Source: Pirellulales bacterium (GTDB lineage: Bacteria > Planctomycetota > Planctomycetia > Pirellulales > Thermoguttaceae). Taken from it: a DNA stretch of 58,269 bases. Every line of letters begins with the position of its first letter. Positions within the stretch are counted from its first letter, which is position 1. Both the position numbers and the translations under genes were made by a program. The notes beneath the pieces are model-generated. The model was not told the DNA's origin. It made no database searches and worked only from the letters and a program-made list of their open reading frames with translations. The stretch is taken from assembly GCA_016931995.1 (NCBI GenBank), contig JAFGDS010000136.1:1-58269 (forward strand), read 5' to 3'. Below, in pieces: positions 17,345 to 21,003 of the stretch.

Positions 17345-19777
17345 TCATCTTTGAATGGACGAGGGAAGAGCCTCCACTGCATCTTCCGCGTGGCCGCCGG
17401 CGCGGGCTTGAACGCTTCGGAGACGCACGAGCAGGTCGACAATCTGTTCGTGAACCGCCTGCGTGTGCATGACGAGGATACTTCGTTTGTCCACCATGGG
17501 ACGGATAATGCCGCCCTGCGGCGCGCCGCCCCAACTGTCCGGGGCGATCGTGGAGGTGATCAGGCCGATGAGCGGCTCGAAGTCCGCCTCCGTCACGTCG
17601 CCCTCGGCCACCAGGTTGCCGACGCGGTAGAGCACAGTCAGCCGTAGGTCGTTCTCGACGGGCGGCGCCGCGGGGGCGGGCGGCGCCGGCCTTGCCGTCT
17701 TTGGCATGACGCGGAACAAGACGAGCATGGATTGGTCCTTGCCGTCGCGGTCGGTGGTGTTCAGCCCGCCGAGCAGAAGCGATTTGTCCTCGGCCACCTC
17801 GGCCGAGGTGGCCATTTCGGTGGTCTCCACCTCGGGGATCTGGAGTGTGGTGGGCGTCCCGTTGGCCCGGTCGGGCGCGGTGACCTTCTTCACATTGCGG
17901 AGGCGAGACAACGTGATGGCAATGTCCAAGCGGATCGCGTCCTTTTTCTGGAAGGACGGCCGCACCTGGATCACCAGGCCCTCGCGGACCGTGCGAACCC
18001 GCGGCTTGCCGTCGCTCACGGCAACGACGAACGGGCTGGCCGAGCAGTCCGAGACGAAGGCCGACTGGCCGTCCAACACGGTGATCGTCGGCGCGGACAG
18101 CACGTTGGCGCGTTTGTCGGCCTGGCAGCGCGCCAGGATTTCGTCCGTCCGGTGGGCGTCCAGGATGGCGGCCACCACGGGCACGTCCCTTTCGATAACG
18201 GTTCGCGCCCGGCCCCCTTGAATGGCCGATGCGTCGGGCCAAGGGCAGCTTTCGACGATCTTCTCCGGCTGCAAGGTCTCGCCCGGCGAATCGGCGTCTG
18301 GCGGCGCAACGGCCATCATTACCCGATCGAGGCTCAACTTGCCGAGCAACTCCGATGGGCACGAGATGATCCGCGCCTCGATCAGGGCCACCGGCTTGCC
18401 TGGGTCGGCGGTGGCCGCGGCCGCTTTCTCGCCTCGATCTGCAGGGACGGGCGCCACCGTCGGGCCAGCAGGGGGCGTCACCGGGATGGCCGTCTTATTC
18501 TGGCCGAGAAGCCAAGTGAGACCTGCGTCGCGAGCGCGACGCGCGGCATCGTCTTGCGACGTCGGGCCGTCGTCGGGCGTCGTCGGGCGGACCGTTTCGG
18601 TCCGGGGGAGTGATCGGGTGTCGTCGTCGGGGTGGGATGCGCCGGGGGTGGGCCGCGCGTCGCTTGGCAGGTCCTTCTCCTGGGCAACCATCGCCGCGCC
18701 GGGCAATACCACGGCGGCCGCCAACACCGTCACGACCCAACACCACCAGGGACTCCTCCGGCGACTTCCTTGTCCGAGTCTCATGATTCGCTCCAATCGT
18801 TTCGAGGTGACCTCCACCGGGCGAACGCCGGGGACGGCCGGAACGGGGAAAAGGGTGCGCTTGCGCTGGAGCACGTCCAGCAGCAGCCGGGCGTATCGGG
18901 CCGGCGGACCGCCCAGCTCGGCCACGACCGCCTCGTCGCAGCAACGCTCCGCCTCCAGCGAGACTGCGCGGCACGCGGCATGCACCATCGGGTGAAACCA
19001 CCACAGGGCCTTCACGATCATCTGCAGCACGCCGACCCAAAGGTCGCCCCGGCGGAAATGGATCAGCTCGTGGGCGAGAATCGGCGCGAGTTCTTCGGCC
19101 GACTTGCCCGCGAGCACCGCTTCCGGCAACACGACCGTCGGACGCACGAGCCCCAGCACGGCCGGACCGACGCGGCATCGCGTTGCGACCAGCCGCGGCG
19201 CCCGGCGAATGCCGAACCGCCGGGAAAGCGAAACGAGCAACTGCCCGTACGATTCGTCGACGTTCGCGCGGGCTTGCACGATGCGGCGAACGGCGACGAT
19301 CCACAGCGCGCTGGGCACGAGGAGCATTCCCGCTGCCCCCAGAGCCCAGACGCCAAGCAGGACGTCGGCCACACTGGCGCTACAAACCGCGTCCAACATC
19401 GAGCCGCCGGACGGGCTGGCAGAGACGGTTGTGCCAGATTCTCCGTCGAGGGGAGGCAGGCCCACCTCGATCTCGACGACCGCCTTGCCTGGGACGGCAC
19501 GTGGCTCGACGGTTCCGTCCTGCTCGGACGACAATCCCACGCCAGTCGGCGTGGAGATCTCGCCCGATCGCGGCGAAAGCCAGCAGAACACGCCGCTGGG
19601 GCTCGACCACACCGGTGGCGTGACGCACTTCACCAGGACGACCAGCCACAGGGCGTGGGCCAGGTGCGGCCGATTGCGGGCGGCCAGCCGCACGAGAATC
19701 GCCACGGCCGCCACAAGGATGGTCACCTGCGCCACCTGCGCGCAGGCCATGCGGATCAGTTCGTCATGGCTGGGCAT
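17345..19777 (-). CDS. BlaR1/MecR1-type M56 metallopeptidase fused to a secretin-like domain
   Basis: An 810-residue membrane protein. N-terminal half: membrane helices (about 14-32, 40-60, 138-165), a cytosolic M56 zinc-protease domain with HELIH at 236-240 and the downstream AERCCDEAV metal-ligand segment (about 276-284), and a further helix (about 343-362). In BlaR1 a penicillin-binding sensor would follow. Here instead come a Pro/Thr/Asp-rich linker (about 365-440) and a domain (about 445-700) with secretin features: RANVLSAPTITVLDGQSA and LLLGGLNTTDRDGKDQSMLVLFRVMP, as in GspD/PilQ. A last segment (about 705-790) resembles the planctomycete IIRPMVDKRSILVMHTQ ... repeat module. Overlaps the blaI-like stop by 14 nt. 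The signal sensed is unknown. Confidence 0.82.
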   Translation of the reverse strand: MPSHDELIRMACAQVAQVTILVAAVAILVRLAARNRPHLAHALWLVVLVKCVTPPVWSSPSGVFCWLSPRSGEISTPTGVGLSSEQDGTVEPRAVPGKAVVEIEVGLPPLDGESGTTVSASPSGGSMLDAVCSASVADVLLGVWALGAAGMLLVPSALWIVAVRRIVQARANVDESYGQLLVSLSRRFGIRRAPRLVATRCRVGPAVLGLVRPTVVLPEAVLAGKSAEELAPILAHELIHFRRGDLWVGVLQMIVKALWWFHPMVHAACRAVSLEAERCCDEAVVAELGGPPARYARLLLDVLQRKRTLFPVPAVPGVRPVEVTSKRLERIMRLGQGSRRRSPWWCWVVTVLAAAVVLPGAAMVAQEKDLPSDARPTPGASHPDDDTRSLPRTETVRPTTPDDGPTSQDDAARRARDAGLTWLLGQNKTAIPVTPPAGPTVAPVPADRGEKAAAATADPGKPVALIEARIISCPSELLGKLSLDRVMMAVAPPDADSPGETLQPEKIVESCPWPDASAIQGGRARTVIERDVPVVAAILDAHRTDEILARCQADKRANVLSAPTITVLDGQSAFVSDCSASPFVVAVSDGKPRVRTVREGLVIQVRPSFQKKDAIRLDIAITLSRLRNVKKVTAPDRANGTPTTLQIPEVETTEMATSAEVAEDKSLLLGGLNTTDRDGKDQSMLVLFRVMPKTARPAPPAPAAPPVENDLRLTVLYRVGNLVAEGDVTEADFEPLIGLITSTIAPDSWGGAPQGGIIRPMVDKRSILVMHTQAVHEQIVDLLVRLRSVQARAGGHAEDAVEALPSSIQR

Positions 19778-20159
19778 TGTCGCTCTCCCGTTCGAGACGA
19801 TCGAGCACCGCGCGCAGCTCGGCGATATCTTGCTCGCCGATACCCCGCTCCTCGATCAGATACCGCACCAGGGGCAGCGTCTGGCCGCCGAAGAGCCGTT
19901 CGACGAGATCGCCGACCGTCTCGCCGATCACGGTGGTCGGCTTCACCTTGGGGGCGTACATCCGGGTGCGGCCGACCAACCACGAGCGGATGTAGCCCTT
20001 GGCGGCCAGCCGCCGCAGATACGTCTGCACGGTGGTGAAGTCCATCTCCCGCCCGGGGGGCAGGGCCTCGTGGACCTGCCTGACGGTCGCCTGGCCCAAC
20101 TCCCAGAGCAGCCGGGCCGCCTCCAACTCGCCCCGCGACATCGCCGGCCGCTTGGCCAT
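19764..20159 (-). CDS. BlaI/MecI/CopY-family transcriptional repressor
   Basis: A 131-residue winged-helix repressor with the family start SRGELEAARLLWELGQATVRQVHEAL and the recognition region FTTVQTYLRRLAAKGYI (about 41-57), then a C-terminal dimerisation helix region (about 80-128). In the bla/mec systems the partner M56 protease cleaves the repressor to release DNA; the 14-nt overlap with the M56-secretin gene implies the same pairing. A two-site operator lies directly upstream (20182-20228). Confidence 0.92.
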   Translation of the reverse strand: MAKRPAMSRGELEAARLLWELGQATVRQVHEALPPGREMDFTTVQTYLRRLAAKGYIRSWLVGRTRMYAPKVKPTTVIGETVGDLVERLFGGQTLPLVRYLIEERGIGEQDIAELRAVLDRLERESDNAQP

Positions 20160-20466
20160 GACTCCCCCTCCCGCCTGTTTTCAAGGACAAATGTACGCTT
20201 GCGGCATTGTGGCGTACATTTGTCCTTGAGTCAAGGGGAGATGGCGGGCATTTTTCTTCGGCGCTATATTCTGGTGGTCGTTGCCTCCGAAGGAGAACCC
20301 CGGCGAACACCAGCGGAGAGCCCAGGGCAGGTGACAGTCTGAACTAATTCCCCACATTATCCACATTACCCAACCGGCAAATCGGGAATATCACGGAGAA
20401 TTCCTACAATCCGTGCCGATTCCAGGGTGTGGGAGCAGTGAAGCGACTCCGTAGGGAGGGGACGTC
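20160..20466. other. Divergent intergenic region between blaI-like gene and secreted protein
   Basis: Holds the paired operator (20182-20228) and further right an AT-richer stretch with two tandem CCACATTA units (20352-20369), which includes one exact DnaA-box 9-mer TTATCCACA (20357-20365). No gene seen. Confidence 0.6.
20182..20228. promoter_or_regulatory. Paired BlaI-type operator
   Basis: CAAGGACAAATGTACGC (20182-20198) and its exact reverse complement (20212-20228) form a perfect 17-bp inverted repeat with a 13-nt spacer. Each arm contains an ACA-NN-TGT dyad, matching the TACANNTGTA core of BlaI/MecI operators, so two dimers could bind side by side. Located 22 nt upstream of the repressor start, in the divergent gap shared with the secreted protein at 20467. 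Confidence 0.8.
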
Positions 20467-21003
20467 ATGCGAAGTTCGGCATTCGCGGCAAAAGGTGTTG
20501 CGATCTTGGCCTGTCTTGGGCTGCTGTCGCCCGAGGGAGCTTGGGCGGCGCCCGCCGCAGCGGTATCGCCTCCGGCGGTCGAGACGGCGGACGCCGAGTT
20601 GGGGCCACGGGGGACGTTTGGCGGGGCGGTGGTCGATCCGCAGGGTCTCGCCGTGCCCGGCGCTCGGGTGATGCTCGTCGTCGGTCCGGGGCGGGTGGTC
20701 AACGCGAAGACCAATCGCGACGGCCAGTTCGCCTTCATTGGAGTCCAGCCGGGGACGCACGTGGTCGCGGCGGCCGGCACGGTGAAGACGTGTCGGCTTT
20801 GGGCTCCCGGCACGGCCCCGCCGGCGGCCCGCACGGGTGGCGTCCTTATCGTCGCCAACGGCGCGGCGGTCCGCGGTCAGCGCGAGTGGTACACGTGGAT
20901 TGCCGACCATTACATTCTTTTTGGCTGCGGCGTTGCCGCGGCGATCGCCGTGCCCTGCGCGGTGGTCGACTCGAACCGCCACAGCGCGCCCGCGTCGCCG
21001 TAG
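20467..21003 (+). CDS. Exported protein with carboxypeptidase-regulatory-like (CnaB-type) domain
   Basis: A 178-residue protein with a signal peptide (about 1-27, ending AWA), a beta-sandwich carboxypeptidase-regulatory-like segment (about 49-105; GTFGGAVVDPQGLAVPGARVMLV ... NRDGQFAFIGVQPGTHVV) and a C-terminal hydrophobic helix (about 146-165). A strong GGAGGGG site precedes the ATG. Divergent from the BlaI-like operon across the paired operator, so it may be in the same regulon. Function unknown. Confidence 0.75.
   Translation: MRSSAFAAKGVAILACLGLLSPEGAWAAPAAAVSPPAVETADAELGPRGTFGGAVVDPQGLAVPGARVMLVVGPGRVVNAKTNRDGQFAFIGVQPGTHVVAAAGTVKTCRLWAPGTAPPAARTGGVLIVANGAAVRGQREWYTWIADHYILFGCGVAAAIAVPCAVVDSNRHSAPASP

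Follow-up and report, generated by a model that had tools for sequence, protein, structure and literature searches.

A BlaI-type repressor gene paired with an M56 protease–secretin fusion in Planctomycetota

The stretch of DNA analysed here, referred to as the window, comprises the 58,269 nucleotides at positions 1 to 58,269 of contig JAFGDS010000136.1 of a Pirellulales bacterium (assembly GCA_016931995.1, family Thermoguttaceae, phylum Planctomycetota). It contains a two-gene operon, preceded by an operator-like inverted repeat, for a BlaI/MecI-type repressor and an M56 metalloprotease whose periplasmic half resembles a secretin rather than a penicillin sensor. An earlier note, made from the sequence alone, had claimed that this pair keeps the BlaI–BlaR1 logic with an altered ectodomain.

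The protease–repressor pair and its operator

Both open reading frames (ORFs) named in the earlier note are present and are recognised by Pfam as Peptidase_M56 and Penicillinase_R (Table 1). They share the 14 nt described there, and translational coupling across the overlap is likely. The repressor also matches solved BlaI/MecI chains (e.g., 1sd4, 3.5e-6, phmmer). PADLOC returned a single weak row for it (0.0052) and no match for the M56–secretin protein.

Table 1. Features of the M56–secretin operon in the window (aa, amino acids; pLDDT, predicted local distance difference test)
Feature	Position	Strand	Basis or remark
M56 metalloprotease–secretin fusion gene, 810 aa	17345-19777	-	ORF list, Pfam
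N1-type domain of planctomycetal secretins, residues 707-790	17408-17659	-	behind the core
Secretin-like core, residues 456-695	17693-18412	-	Pfam, fold search, phmmer
Short turn, residues 673-681	17735-17761	-	at the position of VPxLxxxPxxxxLF in ordinary secretins
Low-confidence linker, residues 369-455	18413-18673	-	pLDDT mostly under 50
Final long helix predicted in the M56 part, residues 344-368	18674-18748	-	structure model
M56 domain, residues 18-308	18854-19726	-	Peptidase_M56 1.1e-39 (Pfam)
ExxxD gluzincin motif, residues 277-281	18935-18949	-	aligned to BlaR1 ExxxD
HELIH zinc motif, residues 236-240	19058-19072	-	Asp245 follows; aligned to BlaR1 HExxH
Overlap of BlaI stop and M56 start, 14 nt	19764-19777	-	ORF list
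BlaI/MecI-type repressor gene, 131 aa	19764-20159	-	Penicillinase_R 5.9e-23 (Pfam)
Putative operator, 18-bp perfect inverted repeat containing two ACAAATGT/ACATTTGT boxes	20181-20229		just upstream of the BlaI start

The HELIH protease proposed earlier is also there, complete with the ExxxD motif and the flanking Asp and Tyr. In BlaR1 the equivalent residues are H201ExxH, Asp210, E242xxxD, and Tyr261 (PMC9834060). Positions H236, E237, H240, D245, E277, D281, and Y295 are invariant in an eight-row alignment of M56 domains of such fusions, one row of which is partial and one from a frame-broken gene. In a fold search with a model of residues 1-375 (mean pLDDT 70.8), five BlaR1 entries take ranks 1-5 (Z 14.9-17.6; next row Z 11.3), the best being Staphylococcus aureus BlaR1 8exs (Z 17.6, root-mean-square deviation 4.8 over 248 residues), so that the predicted fold is that of the BlaR1 transmembrane protease. 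Because the zinc-site residues are conserved and BlaR1 entries are the best matches, the M56 half is very probably an active protease facing the cytoplasm. By analogy with the N-out/C-out topology reported for BlaR1 (PMC9834060), all residues beyond the last long predicted helix would be periplasmic.

The operator claimed in the earlier note is a perfect inverted repeat upstream of the BlaI gene, with arms at 20181-20198 and 20212-20229 and a 13-nt spacer; a longer form of the repeat measures 33 nt (79%). Each arm includes the 11-mer GACAAATGTAC, of which the 5.43 Mb of the genome hold no other exact copy. Binding of BlaI to this repeat is predicted.

The secretin-derived ectodomain

No penicillin-binding or beta-lactamase family was recognised on the 810-aa protein (Pfam, E ≤ 1), and its score with the blaR1_generic model is 73.3 bits against a cut-off of 400. 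In the place of the C-terminal class D-like sensor Pfam finds Secretin (PF00263) on residues 552-681 (1.1e-14; 54.9 bits, cut-off 27.5), in agreement with the replacement that had been proposed. The structure prediction suggested in the earlier note points the same way. With an AlphaFold2 model of residues 366-810, built from 46 alignment rows (mean pLDDT 67.2; confident at about 535-690, where pLDDT is about 90), the 28 best rows of a VIA search are all secretins, among them GspD, PilQ, InvG, pIV, MxiD, BfpB, and RcpA (Z 7.9-10.1; first other fold Z 5.3), as are the 13 best Foldseek matches. Independently of the model alignment, single-sequence phmmer finds MxiD (1.4e-4), and a profile built from fused cores alone finds secretins of the PDB with E down to 4.1e-8, 20 of its 21 matches at E ≤ 1 being secretins. 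The non-secretin matches are three to the M56 part in the single-sequence search and one cytochrome c (E 0.17) in the profile search; BFVD gave no match below E 0.001. Chance likeness to secretins is ruled out by the Pfam, phmmer, fold-search, and fused-core profile results taken together.

The secretin part spans about residues 456-790, with the N1-type domain behind the core, unlike in ordinary secretins, where it lies in front. Compared with ordinary planctomycetal secretins, the window core has a median identity of 25.5% (84 of 84 matched) and the N1-type domain one of 44.6% over 65 aa (83 of 84 matched), as if a contact surface of N1 had been retained. In alignments of 17 and 8 other fusions a degenerate N-like stretch precedes the core (hhalign probability 93 and 88, respectively, against an N1 set of 40 sequences, one of them, L106, from a fusion).

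Between the last two core strands of ordinary planctomycetal secretins there is a segment of the type VPILNKVPYVQRLF; phmmer aligns it with VPLLGDIPVIGNLF in PilQ. The corresponding pattern, VPxLxxxPxxxxLF, was devised after the sequences of both groups had been viewed; it is found in each of 80 sampled ordinary planctomycetal secretins, in 3 of 10 other secretin-core proteins, and in none of 48 fusions, even when whole ORFs are searched. A first version had left three ordinary secretins without the motif, and the next gave 0/34 fusions and 74/74 ordinary secretins. In the window only a nine-residue turn stands at this position. Loop lengths from hmmalign (medians of 11 in fusions and 7 in ordinary secretins, contrary to expectation) were dropped as a measure, the ends of the ordinary secretins having been misplaced. 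The ectodomain is a secretin derivative that lacks the conserved motif.

According to the literature, the amphipathic helical loop is the most conserved sequence of secretins, is central to membrane association (PMC6155069, PMC6532946), and sits between two transmembrane strands (PMC8134430). Given its position between the last two strands, we take VPxLxxxPxxxxLF to be this membrane-inserting loop, and since the putative loop is gone, the fusions should not build an outer-membrane pore. The secretin half might nevertheless still form a ring in the outer membrane, the protein bridging or perforating the envelope while the protease regulates it or is secondary. The retained beta core and N-type domains, and the in vitro assembly of a secretin in liposomes described in PMC8134430, would fit such an arrangement. 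It is nonetheless very unlikely, as the motif taken for the loop is missing in all 48 fusions and the chain is anchored by the M56 helices.

Recurrence of the fusion and exchange of ectodomains

The survey of Planctomycetota proposed in the earlier note yielded at least 48 distinct M56–secretin ORFs, the window included, with a BlaI gene adjoining 44 of them (43 loci). The number is a lower bound, as it derives from the best rows of an order survey (396 genomes) and a phylum survey (392 genomes) and combines loci chosen as hits, related loci, and phylum-survey loci. Three ORFs are incomplete or frame-broken: L047; L106, the same gene as L144, in which M56 and secretin are encoded in different frames; and L127, split by a frame break. 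L135, with M56 at 19 bits, was left out of the count as not being a fusion. No BlaI gene was found next to L112, where 2.3 kb of room is available, nor beside L131 and L154, which begin at contig ends, nor beside L047. Among 54 loci chosen as hits, 31 ORFs carry both M56 (>60 bits) and the secretin core.

Fusions with a family label come from seven families of the order of the window and from a further family within the same class; several carriers are Pirellulales or Pirellulaceae. The fusion is also present on the single-contig genomes G041 (taken to be Planctomycetales bacterium 10988, CP043547.1), G691, G631, G575, G774, G770, and G501; because it recurs on such genomes, an assembly artefact or chimera is ruled out. 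In Blastopirellula marina DSM 3645, Lacipirellula limnantheis, and Bythopirellula polymerisocia the best matches (102-108 bits; matches of 70 bits and above were checked for M56) have the size of ordinary secretins (1264-1364 aa), which in this phylum are mostly about 1100-1500 aa long.

In a FastTree phylogeny of 117 cores the 74 ordinary secretins form one exclusive clade, outside which the fusions and stand-alone cores are placed. The M56 tree (67 sequences, 34 labelled secretin-bearing) needs 5 label changes against a mean of 23 and a minimum of 16 in 200 shuffles, even with L127 and L020, whose ORF stops next to a contig end, labelled "no secretin", which adds changes. As the fusions fall in two distant M56 clades of this tree, M56 proteins probably acquired the secretin module on at least two occasions and for the most part retained it.

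Some related proteins differ in architecture. L047 (G023:C65:1256-2518) has only the last part of M56 (32 bits) followed by the secretin core, and the tail at the end of its ORF, PRIIIQEEEE, resembles the one found in ordinary planctomycetal secretins. L050 (G027:C304) and L134 (G389:C394), of about 400 aa, have a lipobox-like start (by eye) and a motif-less secretin core but no M56; they are possible soluble relatives of the receptor module.

Seven M56 genes in the genome of the window exceed the family cut-off, and all seven have a BlaI gene in the vicinity. Five of the six others (all but L007) were scanned with Pfam. L006 (G000:C44), itself an M56–BlaI pair, has an ectodomain of Poly_export (3.4e-25) and PDZ and is thus a second case of an export-machine part on an M56 chassis, and L005 (G000:C83), near a BlaI gene, has an LTXXQ ectodomain (1.5e-6), which we take to be of the Spy/CpxP type. 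L001, L003, and L004 have no Pfam family over the cut-off besides M56 (and M48 in L001). In relatives, Pfam places HlyD (L060) and LRR (L058) at the C-terminus of M56 proteins. By eye, LRR can be recognised in L059, squalene-cyclase-like stretches in L054 and L055, a Sel1-like stretch in L035, and TIGR03067-like and WD40-like stretches in further M56 proteins. As other M56 proteins carry such varied C-termini, the window pair is one member of a set with exchanged ectodomains.

This diversity is what would be expected if planctomycetal M56 proteins recruited whatever periplasmic domain is at hand and the secretin part were a mere scaffold, dimerising the protease or binding another ligand, such as a glycan, its ancestry then being uninformative on the signal. 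The wide divergence of the cores (six others share 21-38% identity with that of the window) agrees with this. The scaffold is nevertheless a doubtful explanation: two distant M56 clades took up the same type of core and for the most part retained it, whereas random recruitment would have left it more scattered.

Regulation, proposed switch, and comparison with known systems

A ACANNTGT box (ACAnnTGT) is located within 150 bp upstream of BlaI at 41 of the 43 fusion loci (expected 1.79), and TACANNTGTA at 32 of 43 (expected 0.12), the expectations coming from first-order Markov shuffles; the loci having been selected as hits and including several close relatives, these counts are not independent. 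Only L122 and L127 have no box within this distance. Among the six other BlaI promoters in the genome of the window, the box is found at L009 only. The paired site TTACANNTGTA-N3-8-TTACANNTGTA occurs once per genome, at the fusion BlaI promoter, in six of eight genomes searched, all six belonging to one genus other than that of the window.

Further targets were looked for. With one mismatch to GACAAATGTAC allowed, the genome of the window has nine further sites (11 strand hits in total against 3 in the control); several are inside ORFs and none is a convincing second target, so that a wider regulon was rejected. One of them, L064, is upstream of an ORF reading as lexA. A conserved neighbour as the target was likewise rejected, no neighbour gene being common to the loci. 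As the paired site stands at the operon's own promoter and no neighbour is shared, the evidence for a regulon is confined to the operon itself.

Some neighbours are worth mentioning. In the window, a small protein with CarboxypepD_reg (6.7e-10; 20467-21003, plus strand) is encoded divergently, facing the operator, and is a candidate second target. No beta-lactamase was recognised by Pfam among nine neighbouring ORFs scanned. Sulfatase-like ORFs, identified by eye, are near eight loci, four of them in one genus; L116, L117, and L283 are divergent from BlaI, and L275 and L278 are behind the fusion. Because sulfatases are common in Planctomycetota, this neighbourhood is weak evidence of a target.

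The operon could also be its own main output, the signal derepressing the receptor and the newly made secretin-like domain acting as the effector, for instance by capping or clearing stray protomers. Such self-output is consistent with the exact operator copies being confined to the operon's own promoter and with the single paired site in the six genomes of one genus, as well as with a genome in which two tandem M56–secretin genes follow one BlaI (L277). It is, however, rather improbable: degenerate operators elsewhere are possible, given 39 strand hits of KACANNTGTA in the genome of the window against 22 in the control (sites not checked singly), and canonical BlaI represses neighbours as well.

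Our preferred reading, to which we assign a probability of about 0.65, is a transmembrane proteolytic switch of the BlaR1/BlaI type that acts in a single step, regulates its own expression, and has a domesticated, non-pore secretin as its ectodomain. Its parts, namely the repressor, the protease, and the operator, are strongly supported by homology, and a switch in the general sense is quite likely. BlaI would bind the double operator and repress its own operon, as the logic of the family and the conserved operator suggest. The M56 protein would reside in the inner membrane, as BlaR1 does, with its zinc protease facing the cytoplasm, and its periplasmic half would be a secretin protomer that has kept the beta fold and the N1-type domain, lost the motif, and makes no pore. 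Changed contacts of this half would, by analogy with BlaR1, be transmitted to the protease, which would cut BlaI and free the promoter. The reading of the earlier note stands in part: the BlaI–BlaR1 logic is supported, with repressor, protease, operator, gene overlap, and secretin domain all in place, while sensing by the ectodomain, the envelope or secretion cue suggested there, and the cutting of BlaI are inferences.

As to the trigger, the state of the outer-membrane secretins of the same cell is a possible though doubtful candidate, unassembled protomers or free N-domains perhaps pairing with the secretin part of the receptor. More tentative still is the full proposal of a secretin turned receptor that pairs with the native secretins or with their N-domains, reads their assembly state, and releases the operon by cutting BlaI, a dedicated quality-control sensor evolved at least twice.

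Several observations weigh against the proposed switch or parts of it. The residues of the window repressor aligned with what we take to be the scissile Asn-Phe of BlaI are Tyr-Leu. The box is not specific to fusions, being present at 5 of 14 BlaI promoters beside other M56 proteins (0.45 expected), and the paired TTACANNTGTA site is missing from the other two of the eight genomes searched. With the operon as the only clear target, no response gene explains the purpose of the signal. The ordinary secretins included in the model alignment favour a secretin fold, and only 8 of the 48 fusions were found to have an N1-type domain behind the core.

If the secretin part does read real secretins, the pair would be a direct sensor of their assembly. 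The pair shows that the BlaR1/BlaI switch, familiar chiefly for its role in beta-lactam resistance, is able to bear a very different putative sensor, here part of a secretion pore, and the fusions offer a natural experiment on secretins, being a family that keeps the beta core without a motif thought necessary for membrane insertion. The presence of the pair on single-contig genomes, including that of a named strain, Planctomycetales bacterium 10988, makes it open to testing. No paper on an M56–secretin fusion was found among the records listed by searches of an open-access library (most subscription journals and bioRxiv fall outside this scope); domain-architecture databases may already list the combination.

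Among the closest known systems, BlaR1/MecR1 with BlaI/MecI of S. aureus has in common with the window pair the HExxH...ExxxD M56 protease, the BlaR1 fold, the adjacent repressor, a C-terminal ectodomain, and ACAnnTGT operator dyads; the window ectodomain differs in consisting of a secretin-derived core and an N1-type domain instead of a class D beta-lactamase-like domain. With secretins such as GspD, PilQ, InvG, pIV, and the ordinary planctomycetal ones the protein shares the beta core and the N1-type domain, but it is fused to M56, is devoid of VPxLxxxPxxxxLF, and has N1 behind the core. In the Psp response, mislocalised secretins trigger an envelope response; the likeness lies in the state of a secretin as the cue, with no parts in common, PspF/A/B/C standing against a repressor-cleaving protease. 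Finally, a BlaR1 homologue of Mycobacterium tuberculosis, described in PMC9834060 as having no sensor domain, is likewise an M56 protease that does not use the standard penicillin sensor, but it has no equivalent ectodomain, whereas the window protein has a different one.

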